From assembly GCF_900167125.1 (NCBI RefSeq), contig NZ_FUYC01000009.1:1-64000 (forward strand): a stretch of 64,000 nt of DNA. The letters run 5' to 3'. Source of the DNA: Paucidesulfovibrio gracilis DSM 16080 (lineage in GTDB: Bacteria > Desulfobacterota > Desulfovibrionia > Desulfovibrionales > Desulfovibrionaceae). How positions within the stretch are numbered: position 1 is the first letter of the stretch; each line of letters opens with the position of its first letter. The notes beneath the pieces were generated by a model, which worked only from the letters and a program-made list of their open reading frames with translations, was not told the origin of the DNA and did no database searches. This document shows positions 41,372-49,542 of this stretch, piece after piece. A program made the position numbers and the translations under genes.

Positions 41372-43492
41372 TTATTTCACTTCCACGGTTTTTCCCGTCG
41401 CTGCATCACTTGATGCACCAAGAAGCGGAGCGGGCATGTCGCGGTCGTAGCAGGTCAAGCCGCAGCGCAGGCAGCGGTTGGCTTCGTAAAGCGCCTCGGA
41501 TTCACTGATGGTGCCTTCCACCTCGTCAAAGCACTGCGTGCGGTCGTCCAGATCGCAGACATGGGGCATGGCCGTGCGTTCCTTCAATTCAACGTCCGTC
41601 ACGTCTTTGAACAGCGTGTAATCCATGAGTCCATGCAGCACGTTGTCGGGAACGGTGACCTTGCCGGACGCGAGGTAGTGATGAATGGCCCGTGCGGCAC
41701 GCCGCCCCGCGCCAATGGCGGAAATGACGAGGCTGGGACCGGTGAACATATCGCCGCCTGTGAAGACATAGGGGATGGCGGTCTGGAGAGTGTCGGGATC
41801 AGCCGCCAGCGTCCGCCAGCGTGTGGCTTCCAGGGGGCATTCCTGGTCCTCTTCATACAGGCAGTCCAGGGCCGGTTTCTGGCCGATGGCCGCGAGTACG
41901 GAATCCGCTTCCAATACGGTCTCCGAGCCGGGAACCGGTTCCGGACGGCGGCGGCCTGACGCGTCTGCTTCGCCGAGACGCATCTGCACATATTTCACGC
42001 CGCAGGCATGGCCGGAATCATCAAGCACCACCTCCACGGGTTGGGCCAGGAACTGGAAGTTCACGCCTTCCTGTTCCGCTCCTTCGATTTCTTCCGGGTT
42101 GGCGGGCATTTCCTCCCTGGATCGCCGATACATCAGTGTTACGTCCGCACCGAGGCGTACGCTTGTTCGGGCCGAGTCAATGGCGGTATTGCCGCCGCCG
42201 ATGACGATGACCCGTTTGCCGATGCCGGTGCGTACGTTCAAGCCGACTTTGGTGAGCATTTCCGTGCCGCTCATGACGCCGGGGGCGTCCTCGCCGGGGA
42301 TGCGCAACGTGGCGTTGGCCCAGGCTCCGATCCCCAGGAATACAGCGTCGTAATTTCGTTCACCAAGAGATTCCAGGGTAATATCCCGGCCGAAGCGTTT
42401 TTCGGTGCGCACTTTGACCCCGAGATCAAGGATGCCCTGGATTTCCCAATCGAGCACATCCTTTGGGAGCCGGTATTCCGGGATGCCGTAGCGGAGCTGG
42501 CCGCCCAGTTTGGGCATGGACTCGAAAATGGTGGGGTTGTGGCCGAAGCGGCGCAGAAAGTAGGCGCAGGACAAACCAGCCGGACCGCCGCCGATGACGG
42601 CCACGCGCTGACCCGTGGAGGGCGCGCAATGCACGGGTAACCGGGTGCCGGAATTCATCTCCCAATCCGCTACAAACCGTTTGAGCATGTTAATGCCCAC
42701 GGGTTCGTCCACATGGCCCCGTCGGCAAACGGTTTCGCAGGGGCGGGGGCAGACGCGTCCGCAAACCAGCAGCAGGGGGTTGCGTTCCTTGATCGTCTGC
42801 ACTGCGCTGGCATAGTCGCCGTTTTTTACGCAGTTGATGTATTTGGGAATATTGATTTCACCCGGGCAGCGCTGGCGGCAGGGAGCCAGGCAGTCCGATG
42901 TCTGGTTGAGATGCAGAAGCGAGTCGGTGACGCCGTAAACGGACATGACTCCCCGGGGGCAAACCTCTTCGCATTTGCCGCAGGCGCGGCAGGCATCTGG
43001 ATTGACGACTGGATATCCGTTTTCGCCCATGAAAATGGCGTCAAACGGGCAGGCGCGAACACAGCTCCCCAAGCCCAGACAACCTTCGGGACACATCTTG
43101 GAACCGCCGTGAAGCAGGTGTTGGGCGCGGCAGTCGGATGCTCCCTCATAGTGATAGTTTTCCTCGGCGCGGATTCCGCCGGTACAGTCCACATGCGCCA
43201 GACGCGGTTCCAGAGTGACCACCTTGAGTCCCATAATCGAGGCCACGTTGCGGGCGACTTCCTCGCCGCCTACGATGCAGACGTCGGCCCCCTCCTTGCC
43301 GGCCACCACGGCAGCGGCGGCTCCGGCGCATCCTGGGTAGCCGCAGCCACCGCAGTTGGCTCCGGCCAGGGCGTCCTCCACTTGGGCCAGGCGAGGGTCT
43401 TCATCCACATACAGCAGACGGGAAGCCACGCCCAGAATAACGGCGGCGGTGAATCCGATGCCCATCAGGGCCAGGAAGGATGTGAAAATCAT
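41372..43492 (-). CDS. rnfB: RnfB fused to a GltD/NfnB-type NAD(P)H-flavin oxidoreductase
   Basis: 706 residues; ordinary RnfB has 180-330. Residues 1-30 are one membrane helix. The RnfB cluster ANCGGCGYPGCAGAA is at ~45-58, followed by a two-cluster ferredoxin domain (CLGLGSCVRACP, CRACGKCEEVCP, ~135-180). From ~199 the protein is GltD-like: the Cys-rich N-terminal unit (CLAPCRQRCPG, CGRVCPRPCETVC), FAD site VAVIGGGPAGLSCAYFL (~298), NAD(P)H site VIVIGGGNTAID (~426), the YRRSREEMPA segment, and a C-terminal CLRCGLTC. It should pass electrons between pyridine nucleotide, flavin and RnfB iron-sulfur clusters on the cytoplasmic side. Last gene of the Rnf operon. Confidence 0.92.
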   Translation of the reverse strand: MIFTSFLALMGIGFTAAVILGVASRLLYVDEDPRLAQVEDALAGANCGGCGYPGCAGAAAAVVAGKEGADVCIVGGEEVARNVASIMGLKVVTLEPRLAHVDCTGGIRAEENYHYEGASDCRAQHLLHGGSKMCPEGCLGLGSCVRACPFDAIFMGENGYPVVNPDACRACGKCEEVCPRGVMSVYGVTDSLLHLNQTSDCLAPCRQRCPGEINIPKYINCVKNGDYASAVQTIKERNPLLLVCGRVCPRPCETVCRRGHVDEPVGINMLKRFVADWEMNSGTRLPVHCAPSTGQRVAVIGGGPAGLSCAYFLRRFGHNPTIFESMPKLGGQLRYGIPEYRLPKDVLDWEIQGILDLGVKVRTEKRFGRDITLESLGERNYDAVFLGIGAWANATLRIPGEDAPGVMSGTEMLTKVGLNVRTGIGKRVIVIGGGNTAIDSARTSVRLGADVTLMYRRSREEMPANPEEIEGAEQEGVNFQFLAQPVEVVLDDSGHACGVKYVQMRLGEADASGRRRPEPVPGSETVLEADSVLAAIGQKPALDCLYEEDQECPLEATRWRTLAADPDTLQTAIPYVFTGGDMFTGPSLVISAIGAGRRAARAIHHYLASGKVTVPDNVLHGLMDYTLFKDVTDVELKERTAMPHVCDLDDRTQCFDEVEGTISESEALYEANRCLRCGLTCYDRDMPAPLLGASSDAATGKTVEVK

Positions 43493-43579: not shown

Positions 43580-44158
43580 CTAGGAAATCATGCCCTTAAA
43601 GGCGAAGAACGCCAGGGACATAAGTCCGGCCAGAATCAAGGCGATGGGGGTACCCTTCAAGGATCGCGGTACCCGCACCAAATCCAGCCGTTCCCGTATG
43701 CCGGAAAGGATCACCAGGGCCAACGCAAACCCGACACCCGAGGCAAAGGCGAAGACCACGGCTTTGAAAAAGTCGTATTCCTTGCGTTGCACAATGAGAG
43801 CGATGCCGAGCACGGCGCAGTTGGTGGTGATGAGCGGCAGAAAAATACCCAGTGAACGGTAGAGCGGGGGCAGCATCTTTTTCAGGAACATCTCCACGAA
43901 TTGCACCAGCGAGGCGATGACCAGAATGAAGGCGATGGTTTGCAGGTAGCCAAGGCCCGCGGGAAGCAGCAGATACTCCTGCACCAGCCAGGTGATGGCT
44001 GTGGAAAGGGTTGCCACAAAGACTACGGCCGCGCCCATGCCCCCGGCCACGCTTAAACTTTTTGACGTGCCGATAAAGGGACAGTTGCCCAGGTATTGGG
44101 CCAGGACAATATTATTGACGAATATGGCCGCCAGGACCAGAAGCAGATATTCCTGCAT
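43580..44158 (-). CDS. rnfA: Rnf electron transport complex subunit A
   Basis: 192 residues, six membrane helices. It begins MQEYLLLVLAAIFVNNIVLAQ and contains GNCPFIG and ITTNCAVLG, the inverted-repeat cysteines that with RnfE hold a 2Fe-2S centre in the membrane. Length and motifs are canonical. It starts three bases after rnfE. Confidence 0.97.
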   Translation of the reverse strand: MQEYLLLVLAAIFVNNIVLAQYLGNCPFIGTSKSLSVAGGMGAAVVFVATLSTAITWLVQEYLLLPAGLGYLQTIAFILVIASLVQFVEMFLKKMLPPLYRSLGIFLPLITTNCAVLGIALIVQRKEYDFFKAVVFAFASGVGFALALVILSGIRERLDLVRVPRSLKGTPIALILAGLMSLAFFAFKGMIS

Positions 44159-44161
44159 GGC

Positions 44162-44836
44162 TTAGCGCTCCGTTCCCTTGCACAAGCCGCATGACCCGCA
44201 CTCGTGAGTGGGGTTGGCCCGGGGCGCAAGTCCCCGGCGACGGCGTTGCAGGTTGGTGAAATAGTTCATGGCTCCCAGAACCATGCCCAGGCAGACGAAC
44301 GCGCCAGGTGCCTCAATCATGAAACTGAAGGGTTTGAACGAGGGACCGAAAAGCTCTGCGCCGAACAGGGTGCCGTAGCCTGAGATTTCGCGGATCGCTC
44401 CCAAAAAGGTCAGGGAGAGCGTAAAACCCAGCCCCATGCCCAGACCGTCCGCCACGGAAAGGTGCGGCGGATTCTTGGAAGCAAATGCTTCGGCTCTTCC
44501 GAGGATGATGCAGTTTACCACGATGAGGGAAACAAAGATCCCCAGTTTTTGGTACAGGGTGTAGGCAAAGGCCTGCATGAGCAGCTCCACGGCCACCACC
44601 AGCGAGGCCGCGATAACGATATAGCAGGCGATGCGTACCTTGGGGGGCACAATTTTGCGCACCAGGGAAACGAGCAGGTTGGAAAGGGTGAGCACGAATA
44701 CAACGGCCATGCCCATGCCGAATCCGCCGTCTGCCGTCTTGGTCACGGCCAGCACGGGGCAGAGTCCGAGCACCAGGCGGAAAGGCGGCAGTTCTTTCCA
44801 CAATCCTTTGGAAAATTCCTTCCACATTCTGATCAT
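44162..44836 (-). CDS. rnfE: Rnf electron transport complex subunit E
   Basis: 224 residues and homologous to RnfA, with GLCPVLAVTK in the first half and IVVNCIILGRAEAFAS later, carrying the two conserved Cys. About six membrane helices. The C-terminus has an extra short Cys-containing tail (HECGSCGLCKG), which is unusual and might bind a metal or cluster. Confidence 0.95.
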   Translation of the reverse strand: MIRMWKEFSKGLWKELPPFRLVLGLCPVLAVTKTADGGFGMGMAVVFVLTLSNLLVSLVRKIVPPKVRIACYIVIAASLVVAVELLMQAFAYTLYQKLGIFVSLIVVNCIILGRAEAFASKNPPHLSVADGLGMGLGFTLSLTFLGAIREISGYGTLFGAELFGPSFKPFSFMIEAPGAFVCLGMVLGAMNYFTNLQRRRRGLAPRANPTHECGSCGLCKGTER

Positions 44837-44862: not shown

Positions 44863-45459
44863 CTATTGCTGCGCGGCTTCAGCAAAGACGCGCCGAAAGT
44901 CGTCCTTCAGGGCCGTGTAAATGGACAGGGCTTTTTTCACAGCCATGACAGAGGCCGTGGACGATATGGTGGCACCGGAAACAGCGTCGATGTCACCGCC
45001 CTGGGAGCGCAGTTCCAGGTTGGTCAGCTCATGCCCGCGGAATTGGCCGGTGAATCCGTGTTTGGCTACACGGGCACCAATCCCCGGTGTTTCCTTCATG
45101 GTGGTTACGCCGATGCCCTGGACCGTGCCGGGATCAAATGTAAATCCTACCATGACGCCGATCTGGCCGCCGTAGCCCCGGCTTTTGGTTTCAAAGGCCA
45201 CACCCAGCAGCTTGTCGTCTTTCTTGGCAGGGAAGACCGTGATCTCCTGGTCCGTATCCGGAATTGTGAATACGTGGCGTTCCTTCACGGGGTCGTTGTT
45301 GAATGTCGGAAACACGGCGGCAATGGCCGGACCTTGGACGAAAGTGAGTTCCTGCTCCACAATGTGCGGGGCCGTGAATTTTTTCAGGCTGGCCAGGGAG
45401 AGTCCGGCCAGGCCGCAGATCAGCGAGAGCACGACAATCATTTTAAGCATTTCGCGCAT
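44863..45459 (-). CDS. rnfG: Rnf subunit G, periplasmic flavoprotein
   Basis: 198 residues. One N-terminal membrane anchor (~8-27), then a periplasmic domain with the covalent FMN motif DAVSGATISSTAS (~residue 165); the Thr in SGAT is the flavinylation site. Such flavinylation needs ApbE, not encoded in this window. The start overlaps the end of rnfD. Confidence 0.94.
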   Translation of the reverse strand: MREMLKMIVVLSLICGLAGLSLASLKKFTAPHIVEQELTFVQGPAIAAVFPTFNNDPVKERHVFTIPDTDQEITVFPAKKDDKLLGVAFETKSRGYGGQIGVMVGFTFDPGTVQGIGVTTMKETPGIGARVAKHGFTGQFRGHELTNLELRSQGGDIDAVSGATISSTASVMAVKKALSIYTALKDDFRRVFAEAAQQ

Positions 45460-46418
45460 CAGTACGCCCCCTCATGCACGATGAGCGGCTTGGGCCGGAT
45501 GCGGTCCAGCAGGGGAGCCGCAAGGTTGGCCAGCAGGATCGCAAAGGCTGCGCCGTCCGGGTGAACGCCCCAGACGCGGATGATGATCAGCAAGCAACCC
45601 GCTAGAAGGCCGAAAAGAAGCGTGCCGATGGGAAAAACAGGGGAAGAGCCGTTGTCCGTAGTCAGGAAAAAGGCCGCGAACAGCGTACTGCCCGCCAGGA
45701 GGTGGAACACCGGTCCCGCGTACTCTTCGGGGTTGATGAGCTGGAAACACAACGCGGTGAGGGTAACGCCGAGGACGAATCCCAGGGGGATGAGCGGCTT
45801 GATGCGGTTCCGTGCCAGGAGCCAGAGACCGCCCGCCAGCACCGGCAAGGTCTGCACGGCCCCGAGTCCGCCGATTTCGTGGCCAAGAAGTAAGTCCATC
45901 AAGGGAACGTCTTCTACGGCCAGATAGCCGAAATGCTTGAGTTCATGGAGAGGAGCCAGGAAATTGGAGTCCAGCAGGGTCAACTCCGTGTTCATGAGTT
46001 CCGGCCAGGAGATGGACAGGATGGCCCAGCCCACGCAGGGCGCGGCAAGGGGGCTGGCCCCGATGCCGCCGAATACGGCCTTGCCCAGGACAATACTTGC
46101 GGCGGCTCCGGCCAACACCAGCCACCAGGGGGCGGAGGCGGGCAGCAGAAAGGCCAGCAGCAGCCCCGTGAGCAGAGCGTGCAGATCGTCCGTTTCGTTT
46201 TCCCGTTCCATAATGCGTGCGCAAAGAGCCTCCACGACAACGGCGGCCGCGGCGCACAAGGCCATGACACGCAAAGCGGGCAGGCCGTAGTTGACCACGG
46301 CCATCACCACTGCCGGCAGGAGCGCCAGCAACGTTTCCAGCATGATGCCGCGGGTGGTTCGTCCGCAATGGATGTGGGGCGGGCAGGACACGGTCAGCAA
46401 AGGAGAGGGCGGACGCAT
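45459..46418 (-). CDS. rnfD: Rnf subunit D without the usual flavinylation threonine
   Basis: 319 residues with about nine to ten membrane helices. The N-terminus SPLLTVSCPPHIHCGRTT is typical of RnfD/NqrB, as is the DNGSSPVFPIGTLLFG near the end. Where other RnfD proteins have an ATPL-type motif with an FMN-bearing Thr in the mid-protein periplasmic loop, this one reads DSNFLAPLHELKHFG (~residue 160), with no Thr. It starts three bases from rnfC. Confidence 0.9.
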   Translation of the reverse strand: MRPPSPLLTVSCPPHIHCGRTTRGIMLETLLALLPAVVMAVVNYGLPALRVMALCAAAAVVVEALCARIMERENETDDLHALLTGLLLAFLLPASAPWWLVLAGAAASIVLGKAVFGGIGASPLAAPCVGWAILSISWPELMNTELTLLDSNFLAPLHELKHFGYLAVEDVPLMDLLLGHEIGGLGAVQTLPVLAGGLWLLARNRIKPLIPLGFVLGVTLTALCFQLINPEEYAGPVFHLLAGSTLFAAFFLTTDNGSSPVFPIGTLLFGLLAGCLLIIIRVWGVHPDGAAFAILLANLAAPLLDRIRPKPLIVHEGAY

Positions 46419-46420
46419 GA

Positions 46421-47608
46421 TCAGGCTTCCTCCGTGTCTTGGGATGGGGCCGTGTTAGGGGGTTGTTCTGCTTGGGCCGAGGCATCGAGCCGGGCCAATT
46501 CGGATTTGGCCAGTTGCAGGTATTGCAGCAGGGGGCGGCGCGCCGGGCAAACATATCCGCAAATGCCGCATTCGAAGCAGGCTGCGACATGGCCGAAACG
46601 GGCACGTTCCCAAAGACCGGCCTCGGCACACATGCTGAGTTCTCCCGGAAACAACCGTGCCGGGCAGTGGCGGGCGCATTGGCCGCAGTTAAGGCAAGCC
46701 GCGTCCCGCACCGGCGGGTAGGTGCTTTGCGGGATGACGGTCACACCGTAATCCTGGAGATGGAGACCGGTATTCAGGTCGAATAGTGCCTGGCCGCACA
46801 GGGGACCGCCGCGCGACACCCGATCTCCTGCATCGGGCAGGGAGCCGGTGGCTTCCAGCAGGTCGTGAACGGGCGTTCCAACCATGGCGCGCAGGTTCCG
46901 GCCTTGGACGGTGAGGAAAACTTCTGTTCGCGGCAGGCCGGTTTCCATGATCCGTCCCAGCGCCATAAGCGTGAAGATGTTGATCACGGTGATTTTTTTA
47001 GAGACGTTTTTTTCGCCGATGGCCTGGAGGATCATGGTTTTCATGCCGTTGGGATGTCGGGGCGGCATCCGGACAACGTCACAGTTGCCGAAAGCCGATG
47101 CATCCACGTCCGGGCCGACCACGGTCACCTGGGTCGGCGTGATCAGCGTGCGGGCCAGGCGAAGCCCTTTCGAAAGCGTATCTCGAAAGTCGCGAAGCAG
47201 CCGTCCGGTGATGAAGATATTCGGTTCCGGTGGGGTGGCGTTGACGACCAATCGTCGGGCGGGTCGCAGGGCGTCCACATCCATGCCGCATTCGCTGAGG
47301 GCGTTTTTCAGTGCGGAGCCGTTCAGGGCGCTCAGATCCCTGGCCGCCACCGGCTCGACGGCCACAGGACCGCTTCGCACAGAGACAAACCCGTCTTGCA
47401 CCCCTGTCACCTCGCCGGCAACCGGAGTATGCGTCCAGGGACCGAGGGGGTGGGCCGGTCGGCCGACAGCGCCGAAGCGGGGAAGTTCCTCCCCGGGAGT
47501 CACCAGGGGGAGGCCTCCACGCAACGGAATGTGGACTTCTTGTGCCTGCGGGGCGTCCTGCAACGGGCTGCCCGGATCAGTATGCAATATGAAATCGTTT
47601 TTGCCCAT
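46421..47608 (-). CDS. rnfC: Rnf subunit C with two 4Fe-4S motifs but no visible NADH/FMN loop
   Basis: 395 residues. The N-terminal barrel-sandwich domain (VHIPLRGG, PVAGEV) and the C-terminal ferredoxin domain with CLNCGQCARHCP (~314) and CFECGICGYVCP (~352) fit RnfC. The glycine-rich GxGGAGFP loop expected before the ECEP motif is not seen: the region reads SALKNALSECGMDVDALRPA followed by NATPPEPNIFI. The protein is soluble and cytoplasmic. Probably unable to bind NADH in the standard way. Confidence 0.9.
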   Translation of the reverse strand: MGKNDFILHTDPGSPLQDAPQAQEVHIPLRGGLPLVTPGEELPRFGAVGRPAHPLGPWTHTPVAGEVTGVQDGFVSVRSGPVAVEPVAARDLSALNGSALKNALSECGMDVDALRPARRLVVNATPPEPNIFITGRLLRDFRDTLSKGLRLARTLITPTQVTVVGPDVDASAFGNCDVVRMPPRHPNGMKTMILQAIGEKNVSKKITVINIFTLMALGRIMETGLPRTEVFLTVQGRNLRAMVGTPVHDLLEATGSLPDAGDRVSRGGPLCGQALFDLNTGLHLQDYGVTVIPQSTYPPVRDAACLNCGQCARHCPARLFPGELSMCAEAGLWERARFGHVAACFECGICGYVCPARRPLLQYLQLAKSELARLDASAQAEQPPNTAPSQDTEEA

Positions 47609-47614
47609 GGACGG

Positions 47615-48388
47615 TTACCTGATGTGACACTTGTCGCAGTCGTTTTCGCCGTAGGGGCCTTTTTGCAGATCCCGGTGGCAGTTCATGCATTGGTCATGGA
47701 AGGCATTGGTGCGCGTGAGTACCAGCTCACGGTCCGGATTCGGAGTGCGGTGGCATTGCTGACACGGGGTGTAAGAGCCGGAATAATTGGTCATATCCTT
47801 CATGCGGTGGCAGGGCGAGCACCCTTTGATGCCTTTGTCGAACATATCGTCGTGACAGGTGGCGCAGCGTTTGTGGGCCGCGTCCCGGAGGCTGGGCATA
47901 TATTCATCCCCGGCGAGGTCATGGCATTGGTTGCAGTGGCCTGGTTCGTCCTCGATATCCGGCCCGTGGTGGCAGGCCTGACAGTCGTCAAAGGCATACT
48001 CTTTGTGTGCTTCGTGGTCGAAGGCCAGCTCGCCGAATTCCGCGTGGTGACATTTCACGCAGTAGCTTTTGTCCGGGAAGGAATTGACGTGCTCGGCGAT
48101 GTAGTCCTGGTCAAAGGATGCGGGATGACAGGAACCGCAGGGGACAGGTTCGGCTTTCGCAGCTTGCTGTCTGTCATGTTCCGTTTTGGTTTCGTGGTGA
48201 CATTGCACGCAGGCTATTTCGTAGTTCCGATGATGGCGAAGGTGGGAGAAAATCACCCGGCCGCCGTTGTTGTGAAACAGAATGCGCACGGGCAGCTTTT
48301 GGGCTGTGGCCGGGAGAAGATATCCAGCCAAGGCCACGGCAAGCAGCAGGCAGACGACTACCGTGATGGGAATGTGGCGTTTTTGCAA
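47615..48388 (-). CDS. Rnf-associated decahaem c-type cytochrome
   Basis: 257 residues with ten CxxCH motifs (CVQCH, CGSCH, CVKCH, CQACH, CNQCH, CATCH, CSPCH, CQQCH, CMNCH, CDKCH). An N-terminal hydrophobic segment (~8-28) is a signal or membrane anchor. The periplasmic cytochrome is placed first in the Rnf operon, six bases from rnfC. The start appears to be a TTG at 48388, because no ATG or GTG lies in frame; TAGG stands upstream. It likely exchanges electrons with the soluble cytochrome c3 pool and RnfG/RnfD. Confidence 0.92.
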   Translation of the reverse strand: MQKRHIPITVVVCLLLAVALAGYLLPATAQKLPVRILFHNNGGRVIFSHLRHHRNYEIACVQCHHETKTEHDRQQAAKAEPVPCGSCHPASFDQDYIAEHVNSFPDKSYCVKCHHAEFGELAFDHEAHKEYAFDDCQACHHGPDIEDEPGHCNQCHDLAGDEYMPSLRDAAHKRCATCHDDMFDKGIKGCSPCHRMKDMTNYSGSYTPCQQCHRTPNPDRELVLTRTNAFHDQCMNCHRDLQKGPYGENDCDKCHIR

Positions 48389-48612: not shown

Positions 48613-49542
48613 TTAATCGGTTTCCTTGTCAGCATCGGTTTGTGCCGTCTTGAGCCGCTTGGAATAGGACGCGGCTTCGATTCCCGCGACGCATCCTTCG
48701 CCCACGGCCTTGGCGATCTGCAAAGGGGGACCGCAGATGTCGCCAGCGGCGTACACGCCGGGAATGTTGGTACGCTGCTTTTTGTCGGTCTGCACGTATT
48801 TCATGGTCTCGTCCAGTTCCAGCCCAAGAGTGGCGGCCAGCTCCAGGACACCTTTGGCCCCGAGTTCGATGAACACCCCGGCAACATCCAGGCGTGTGCC
48901 GTCCTTGAGTTGTAGACCGGTGACCGCGTTTTCCCCTTCGATGGCTGCGACTTCGGCATTTTCAAGGATGGTGACGCCTTGTTCCCGAGCCTGGGCGAGT
49001 AGTTCCGGAGCCACGTCGAAGCGGTCGTTGATAAGCCAAACCTTTGATGCGGTATGGGAAAGGGTTACGGATCCGCCCACGGCGGCACTCTGGCCGCCCA
49101 CCACTGCCACCGGTTCGTTGCGGAAAAAGCCGCCGTCGCATTCCACGCAATAGCTTACGCCTTTCCCCAGAAGTTCTTTTTCACCGGGGACGCCCAGTCG
49201 ATTGCGACTGGTGCCTGTGGCCAGCACCAGGGAGCGTGCCGTAAAGGTGCGGCCGCTTTCGATGGTCAATTGGAAATGTTTGCCTTGTGGCAGGATGGAG
49301 AGCACGTCTTCTTCAATGATCTCAGTGCCGAAGTTCTCTGCCTGCATCTTGCCGGTTTCGAGCATTTCTTCGCCCGTGATTTTGAGCTGGCAGCAGAAGT
49401 TTTCCACATGCGCCCAAAACAGGCTGCTTTTGTGCATTCTTCCGAGCATGAGCACGTCCGCTTTTTTGCGGGACGCGTGGATGGCGGCCTGAATGCCGCC
49501 GGGACCGGAGCCGAGGATGACGACATCGTAGATTCGATTCAT
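48613..49542 (-). CDS. Thioredoxin reductase-like flavoprotein
   Basis: 309 residues. FAD site VVILGSGPGGIQAAIHASR at the start, the redox pair CVECDGGFF (~residue 132) in place of the usual CA(T/V)CDG, NAD(P)H site VAVVGGQSAAVGGSV (~147; the normal GGGDSA is altered), and GVYAAGDICGPPLQIAKAVGEG at the end. An additional Cys pair, ENFCCQL (~48), stands where standard enzymes have ENFPG. The reductant and protein partner are uncertain; no thioredoxin gene is adjacent. Confidence 0.82.
   Translation of the reverse strand: MNRIYDVVILGSGPGGIQAAIHASRKKADVLMLGRMHKSSLFWAHVENFCCQLKITGEEMLETGKMQAENFGTEIIEEDVLSILPQGKHFQLTIESGRTFTARSLVLATGTSRNRLGVPGEKELLGKGVSYCVECDGGFFRNEPVAVVGGQSAAVGGSVTLSHTASKVWLINDRFDVAPELLAQAREQGVTILENAEVAAIEGENAVTGLQLKDGTRLDVAGVFIELGAKGVLELAATLGLELDETMKYVQTDKKQRTNIPGVYAAGDICGPPLQIAKAVGEGCVAGIEAASYSKRLKTAQTDADKETD

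Follow-up and report, generated by a model that had tools for sequence, protein, structure and literature searches.

The rnf operon of Paucidesulfovibrio gracilis DSM 16080 ends with a gene that encodes RnfB and a complete GltD/NfnB-like flavin module in a single chain of 706 residues. The gene lies on the minus strand at 41372-43492 of the window, i.e. the stretch of 64,000 nucleotides analysed here (positions 1 to 64,000 of contig C9, NZ_FUYC01000009.1). The genome (3.18 Mb, 99.85% complete) carries dsrA, so P. gracilis most likely reduces sulfate by the dissimilatory route. By sequence and structure models the complex belongs to the large-RnfB type of Desulfobacula toluolica Tol2, and we lean, with somewhat better than even confidence, towards its working as a ferredoxin/nicotinamide adenine dinucleotide phosphate (NADP(H)):periplasmic-cytochrome Rnf with electrons leaving at RnfG. 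An RnfB of about 700 residues with a nucleotide-binding domain, an RnfC without NADH-dehydrogenase and SLBB domains, and kinship with Desulfobacula were all found. The alignments and models showed the predicted StnC-like flavin adenine dinucleotide (FAD)/NADP(H) domain standing in series with the ferredoxin clusters of RnfB.

The RnfB fusion gene

The frame had no internal stop, started with ATG and was preceded by AAGGAG 5 bases ahead. Residues 1-190 formed the RnfB portion (TIGR01944, 78.6 bits against a cut-off of 68.7; NF005503 over residues 1-256, under the family cut-off). It consists of a membrane helix at residues 2-26 (43415-43489; helical in the AlphaFold2 (AF2) model, the RnfB match starting at residue 1), a single-cluster domain CGGCGYPGC...C with Cys47-72 (43277-43354; PF04060 at 42-73) and two ferredoxin 4Fe-4S clusters with Cys134-178 (42959-43093; Fer4 matches inside 134-182). 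The GltD/NfnB-like unit occupied residues ~198-685 (NF009410 at 198-685, above the family cut-off). In it, a Cys-rich N-terminal domain with Cys201-256, together with Lys271 (42680-42892; PF14691 at 201-282), was followed by the FAD-binding motif IGGGPAGLSCA (residues 296-334, 42491-42607; PF07992 at 296-596), the NADP(H) motif GGGNTAID...YRRSREEMPA (residues 427-461, 42110-42214) and the C-terminal CLRCGLTC with Cys674/677/681 (41450-41473). When 22 fused proteins were aligned, Cys 47/50/55/72, 134/138/144/148, 168/171/174/178, 205/209/248/252/256 and 674/677/681 were invariant, as was the GGGxxG of the FAD site. Cys201 was invariant across the 36 fusions of the P. gracilis family but not in this alignment.

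The same domain order, when sought in other genomes, was found widely. Our order sample comprised 60 stretches hand-chosen from the matches listed plus a second rnf locus of P. gracilis, and its counts are not a frequency; a further 80 named loci came from a scan of genome contigs with an RnfE alignment, and in some of these the stretch lacks RnfB. Among the matches listed for the 247 rnfB-bearing genomes of the order there were long frames of ~700-760 aa and short ones of ~270-400 aa. A locus was called fused when both parts lay in one frame. Thirty-six of the 60 order loci with both RnfB and RnfC (P. gracilis included) were fused, all in its family, and 24 were unfused; among the named loci 25/80 were fused, with Desulfobacterales, Desulfacinum, Desulfocarbo, UBP15 and metagenome-assembled genomes (MAGs) labelled Spirochaetes and Aminicenantes represented. 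In total 61 fused loci were obtained, a few of them duplicates. The tallies include duplicates: RnfA and RnfE are identical between L052 and L108 and between L091 and L097, and nearly so between L120 and L122. The same frame was open in 60 of the 61, which excludes chance or an assembly artefact as the origin of the fusion. The sole broken copy, in Salidesulfovibrio brasiliensis (L096), has a frame change within the flavin portion, and no order or named locus had RnfB and flavin portions adjacent but split at the junction; the statement that the junction is intact rests on the absence of such split pairs. The original prediction would have been undermined by a stop or frame break between the two parts in relatives, and none was seen there. 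Together with the open frame, the domain matches and the AF2 model, this confirmed the 706-residue fusion as a real single gene, as had been proposed. Two Desulfobacterales loci (L107 and L127) carry cytochrome-rnfCDGEA operons with no adjoining rnfB, an arrangement that is in print for Desulfotignum phosphitoxidans.

The fusions of the P. gracilis family fell into two types of 18 loci each. Type 1, to which the 706-aa fusion belongs, had a ten-haem cytochrome as well as GGGNTA, YRR and Lys271 in 18/18 loci, and ApbE in 4/18 stretches. Type 2 had a five-haem cytochrome in 18/18 and ApbE in 13/18 stretches. The FAD glycines (Gly301/303/306) were kept in all 18 loci of either type, while in type 2 the NADP(H) motif was degenerate throughout, with Thr or Ser for Gly434 and no YRR in 18/18, and Lys271 was replaced by His, Glu or Gln. 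Both types occurred together in nine genomes, P. gracilis counted, whose two fused RnfB copies are 49% identical. Its second operon (L004, 5781-12615, on contig C7) encodes a type-2 RnfB of 712 aa with a degenerate NADP motif and a five-haem cytochrome, with ApbE adjoining.

Fold of the flavin module

In the AF2 model of the fusion, built with the 22 fused proteins as input (predicted local distance difference test (pLDDT) 81.9, predicted template modelling score 0.79), the FAD/NADP fold was kept, in line with the original prediction. Residues ~200-680 superposed on the large chains of NfnABC and StnC (top three matches: Z 41.5-43.1, root-mean-square deviation 1.8-2.5 Å, 467-473 residues), with identities of 44-47% across ~470 aligned residues. 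The NfnABC and StnABC chains were its closest solved relatives, and P. furiosus NfnL (Z 32.0) and GltD (Z 31.6) were more distant matches.

In StnC the GltD-like domain is an NADPH port which passes electrons to the StnC clusters, and bifurcation has been lost; its proximal cluster has a Lys in place of the Glu of NfnB, whereas an Arg is common to both (PMC10482914). In our alignments Lys271 of the fusion matched StnC Lys170 and, at the position of the FAD-proximal cluster ligand, the Glu of NfnL; Arg341 matched StnC Arg239 and NfnL Arg201. Compared with bifurcating NfnB, the fusion shares the GltD fold and the sites for FAD and NADP(H) but not the proximal-cluster Glu. With the proximal-cluster Lys, the Arg near FAD and the C-terminal CLxCG shared with the StnC/NfnABC chains all found, the module matches what would be predicted for an StnC-type, non-bifurcating NADPH domain. 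The C-terminal CLRCG segment (residues 674-681) also aligned weakly (2.8 bits) with the N-terminal CLQC of NfnL, as if permuted, and a C-terminal placement of such a segment is seen in StnC too. Elsewhere in the genome there is a stand-alone GltD/NfnB-like gene (C35:4556-5821) with 46% identity to the module.

The operon and its altered subunits

The operon, all on the minus strand, is ordered ten-haem cytochrome c-rnfC-D-G-E-A-B, with gaps of 6, 2, -1, 26, 3 and 87 bases and the fusion gene last. Of the features of a canonical Rnf, the rnfCDGEAB gene set, the covalent-flavin mononucleotide (FMN) Thr of RnfG and the cluster Cys of RnfA and RnfE were present, but the FMN/NADH glycine loop of RnfC and the covalent-FMN Thr of RnfD were not.

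RnfC (395 aa, 46421-47608) gave 138 bits to TIGR01945 against a cut-off of 246, and its only Pfam matches were two sub-cut-off Fer4 domains. The FMN loop (GMGGAGFPT-like) was deleted at about residues 104-116 (47261-47299). The RnfC fold was kept in the model (pLDDT 88.6; Z 35.2 to 8rbm_C, 35.0 to 9eri_C, then NqrA at Z 28.4), and its eight cluster Cys were invariant in 17 rows. We scored the loop by alignment and by a pattern wide enough for the canonical GGATFP loops. It was deleted in 36/36 fused order loci and missing from 22/24 unfused ones (L056 was counted as loop-less, but its RnfC fragment does not cover the loop), leaving L069 and L075 as the only order loci with it. Fusion as the cause of the loop loss was ruled out, since separate-RnfB operons of the P. 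gracilis family are loop-less as well. L069 and L075 are second Rnf operons of canonical type, keeping both the RnfC loop and the RnfD Thr, on a very long branch, and both genomes also carry a type-2 fused Rnf. The loss of the RnfC loop strengthens the proposed departure from standard Rnf; with the FAD and NADP(H) signatures kept in the module, it also supports the idea that the pyridine-nucleotide site would sit on RnfB, beside the ferredoxin clusters.

FMN is carried by RnfD Thr156 in A. woodii, where Asn123 and Asp249 bind riboflavin (PMC11889175), and the FMN-carrying residue of C. tetanomorphum RnfD is Thr153, although UV fluorescence on SDS-PAGE failed to reveal that subunit. In alignments, P. 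gracilis RnfD (45459-46418) has Ala155 in place of this Thr and Ala125 in place of the riboflavin-ligand Asn. Among 135 RnfD rows, three of them without usable RnfC, the Thr was present in 37/37 loci with the RnfC loop and 8/95 without it; the Asn123 equivalent was found in 36/37 and 40/95, and the Asp249 equivalent in 37/37 and 57/95, respectively.

The subunits of the proposed outward path kept their cofactor sites. RnfG (44863-45459; NF045876) kept the covalent-FMN motif SGATISS, and GAT (GAS once) was present in every RnfG row aligned. Profile matches and alignments showed both cluster Cys in RnfE (44162-44836) and in RnfA (43580-44158), and the four positions were Cys in 123, 123, 123 and 121 of 123 rows. 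RnfE has an extra C-terminal CxxCxxC (ECGSCGLCKG, 44165-44203), whose Cys occurred in 58-65 of the 123 RnfE rows. The first gene, 6 bp before rnfC (47615-48388; PF02085), encodes the c-type cytochrome with a hydrophobic N-terminus and 10 CxxCH motifs. Directly upstream of the operon, on the same strand, lies a thioredoxin-reductase-like gene (48613-49542); a Rex-type palindrome was looked for upstream of the operon, where the best matches had 5-6 mismatches and none was convincing.

Association with a multihaem cytochrome

From 142 loci (62 of the order, the focal locus and L004 included, and the 80 named ones), L061 and L074 were dropped because the stretch had no RnfC, and 8 more had no usable RnfC or RnfD. 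Of the remaining 132, 8 with less than 1 kb upstream of rnfC were omitted, which left 124 loci. A cytochrome was called when a same-strand frame with at least three CxxCH was found upstream of rnfC. This was the case in 76/124 loci, and all 76 were without the RnfC loop and without the RnfD Thr. No cytochrome was called in any of the 42 loci that keep the Thr (0/35 with loop and Thr, 0/7 loop-less with Thr), and random slots in the same loci gave one in 44/4072. Seven unfused loci with loop-less RnfC and no cytochrome gene seen (L056-L058, L060, L063, L065 and L126) may be a further variant, although the RnfC of L056 is a fragment and L057 has less than 1 kb upstream.

On a quick RnfA+RnfE tree of 123 rows, the loop changed once, the cytochrome three times, the Thr four times and the fusion three times, the last count omitting 12 rows without a whole RnfB. 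The trait losses are few ancestral events, and the association is not statistically independent. The nearest row to P. gracilis was a MAG (L095), in a 17-row clade which includes two Pseudodesulfovibrio MAGs. Both P. gracilis and a Desulfobacula MAG (L118) fell within the 88 loop-less rows on one side of a starred branch; the finer order of nearest rows was less well supported. Fused rows enclosed a 19-row clade with a separate short RnfB; this points to loss of the flavin module in that clade, though gain and loss cannot be told apart from the counts.

Proposed electron path and its alternatives

In canonical Rnf, electrons pass from ferredoxin through RnfB, the RnfA/E cluster, the FMN of RnfG, the FMN and riboflavin of RnfD and the clusters and FMN of RnfC to NAD+ (PMC11889175). 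Because the RnfD and RnfC stations of the P. gracilis complex look disabled and a nucleotide site stands at the entrance, the simplest remaining circuit would be RnfB-RnfA/E-RnfG-cytochrome. RnfB would be the cytoplasmic port for electrons in either direction, with ferredoxin or, by way of FAD and the 4Fe-4S clusters of the module, NADP(H) as partner, and the RnfA/E cluster would take them across the membrane as far as RnfG. An exchange of electrons between RnfG and the periplasmic cytochrome would replace the return through RnfD to NAD+ at RnfC, with ion movement still coupled to the RnfB-RnfA/E-RnfG step. The circuit may be reversible, reducing NADP+ and ferredoxin with electrons from periplasmic H2 or formate, or running in the opposite direction. 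There are precedents: in M. acetivorans Rnf, RnfG was proposed as the terminus which donates to cytochrome c, without NAD(P) (PMC4023990), and for two-subunit Nqr/Rnf-like complexes, whose RnfD-like part is without the Thr, an outward flow of electrons from NAD(P)H was proposed. Furthermore, attempts to demonstrate ferredoxin:NAD+ coupling in D. alaskensis G20 vesicles failed (PMC4841214).

Several observations weigh against this path. In D. alaskensis G20, rnf mutants had strong phenotypes whereas mutants of dhcA, the decahaem gene of the operon, had none, except in one pyruvate experiment (PMC4215793, PMC4841214). RnfC retains its eight cluster Cys, which is unexplained if no electrons reach RnfC, and RnfD retains the riboflavin-ligand Asp255. 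The YRR of the NADP site, found in 20/25 named fused loci, is missing from the other five (broken L096 among them) and from 18/18 type-2 loci. Four fused loci retain the RnfD Thr, and six of the 124 loci have neither loop, Thr nor cytochrome. Since the traits changed few times on the tree and an independent-pairs test of the cytochrome/Thr association had too few pairs to have any power (p = 1), the association may reflect shared descent. Biochemistry of any large-RnfB complex was not found in the literature passages searched.

Among the alternatives, a ferredoxin:NADP+ side branch survives best, and we consider it unlikely. Here, ferredoxin and NADP(H) would exchange electrons in a reaction of the soluble type within the membrane-anchored RnfB, largely independent of the pump. 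It would fit the presence of the RnfB clusters and FAD in a single chain and the evolutionary dispensability of the module, as seen in the nested 19-row clade; however, it leaves the losses of the RnfC loop and the RnfD Thr in the same operons unexplained, and both the membrane helix of RnfB and its relay domain with the single cluster are retained.

Bifurcation at the fused FAD, with one share of the NADPH electrons going to the ferredoxin clusters and the other, at higher potential, into the membrane or to the cytochrome, is improbable. The original prediction had suggested bifurcation or transhydrogenation within the complex, and the fold, Arg341 and two possible exits for electrons would agree with the former. 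However, the Lys271 next to FAD is that of StnC, in which bifurcation was lost, not the Glu of NfnB; StnC has the Arg too; and no second nucleotide site is left, since the only other one to be expected would be that of RnfC, which has been lost. An NfnA-like NAD(H) partner was not present among the eight proteins scanned, the remaining genome not having been searched for one.

An ordinary ferredoxin:NAD+ Rnf, in which NADH binds to RnfC at a modified site and the RnfB module plays an accessory part, would agree with the retained RnfC fold and with the Desulfovibrio papers that call Rnf a ferredoxin:NADH oxidoreductase (PMC4215793), but is just as hard to credit given the deleted RnfC glycine loop, the lost RnfD Thr, the example of NqrA, in which the fold outlasts the cofactors (PMC4014512, PMC12174285), and the failed coupling in G20 vesicles.

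Beyond P. gracilis, the ferredoxin/NADP(H):cytochrome path can be extended, tentatively and with slightly less than an even chance for all its parts jointly, to a large clade that spans sulfate reducers and members of some other phyla, whose Rnf would be not a ferredoxin:NAD+ oxidoreductase but a one-way ferredoxin/NADP(H):cytochrome c coupling site across the membrane. The return path would have lost its flavins in RnfC and RnfD, RnfG would feed the multihaem cytochrome of the operon and RnfB would have taken over the nucleotide port; the NADP(H) module may later have become unable to recognise NADP in the type-2 copies with their five-haem cytochrome, and one Desulfovibrio clade may have discarded it. 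Desulfovibrio Rnf has been modelled as a ferredoxin:NADH oxidoreductase (PMC4215793). Should RnfC and RnfD indeed be without flavins, Desulfovibrio energy balances built on that model would need redrawing, and the linkage between NAD(P)H, ferredoxin and periplasmic cytochrome in sulfate reducers would become a directly testable question.

Comparison with known systems

The fusion, whose novelty had been left open in the original prediction, was already in print for D. toluolica Tol2 and Desulfococcus multivorans, and so was the reduction of RnfC (PMC5109826). In that paper NAD+-binding sites are described on the ~700-aa RnfB of the Tol2-type Rnf, whose RnfC has neither NADH nor SLBB domains and whose mode of action is unverified; Rnf2 of D. 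multivorans is of the Tol2 type and has a cytochrome gene in its rnf2 cluster (PMC5109826). These traits are shared with P. gracilis. However, the paper describes NAD+ binding and seeks an unidentified partner of RnfC, whereas P. gracilis adds the NADP(H) signature, the RnfD Thr loss and the ten-haem cytochrome. It is thus a member of a described Rnf type, and an uncharacterised one in the literature passages found. As far as the literature searched shows, the present study adds the RnfD loss and its link to the cytochrome, the distinction of two fusion types and the argument from Lys versus Glu; none of the passages searched mentioned that sulfate reducers have lost the RnfD Thr, which is no proof of absence. 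A 2024 survey read many Desulfovibrionaceae operons as rnfB loss with gain of an FAD-dependent oxidoreductase (PMC11434368). That survey probably describes the RnfB-flavin fusion, and the P. gracilis gene illustrates how operons can come to be read in that way. A connection of the periplasmic pool with cytoplasmic NAD(P)H and ferredoxin through an Rnf cytochrome was also proposed earlier (cited in PMC4287179).

The large chains of Sporomusa StnABC and of NfnABC share the GltD-like FAD/NADPH domain and the C-terminal CLxCG with the fusion, and StnC shares the proximal-cluster Lys as well. However, the fusion is without the NuoG-like part, and its module is joined to RnfB and not to a bifurcating StnAB core. 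Like the canonical Rnf of A. woodii, C. tetanomorphum and A. vinelandii, the P. gracilis complex has six subunits, the RnfA/E Cys, the RnfG FMN motif and the RnfB helix and cluster domain; unlike them, it has lost the RnfC FMN loop and the RnfD FMN Thr and carries a flavin module on RnfB. The M. acetivorans Rnf resembles it in the operon-encoded multihaem cytochrome and in RnfG as the proposed exit, and is described as working without NAD(P); there, the acceptor is methanophenazine, what may be a flavin motif (SGTF) is retained in RnfD, and the passages found make no mention of a flavin module on RnfB (PMC4023990). Na+-NQR has a cofactor-less RnfC-like subunit (NqrA) and a flavin NADH module on its input subunit NqrF, but that module is FNR-type and the electrons return via NqrB to quinone (PMC4014512, PMC12174285). 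The P. gracilis complex would parallel the origin of Na+-NQR, an RnfC free of cofactors and an input subunit bearing a flavin module having been arrived at by way of a different enzyme family.

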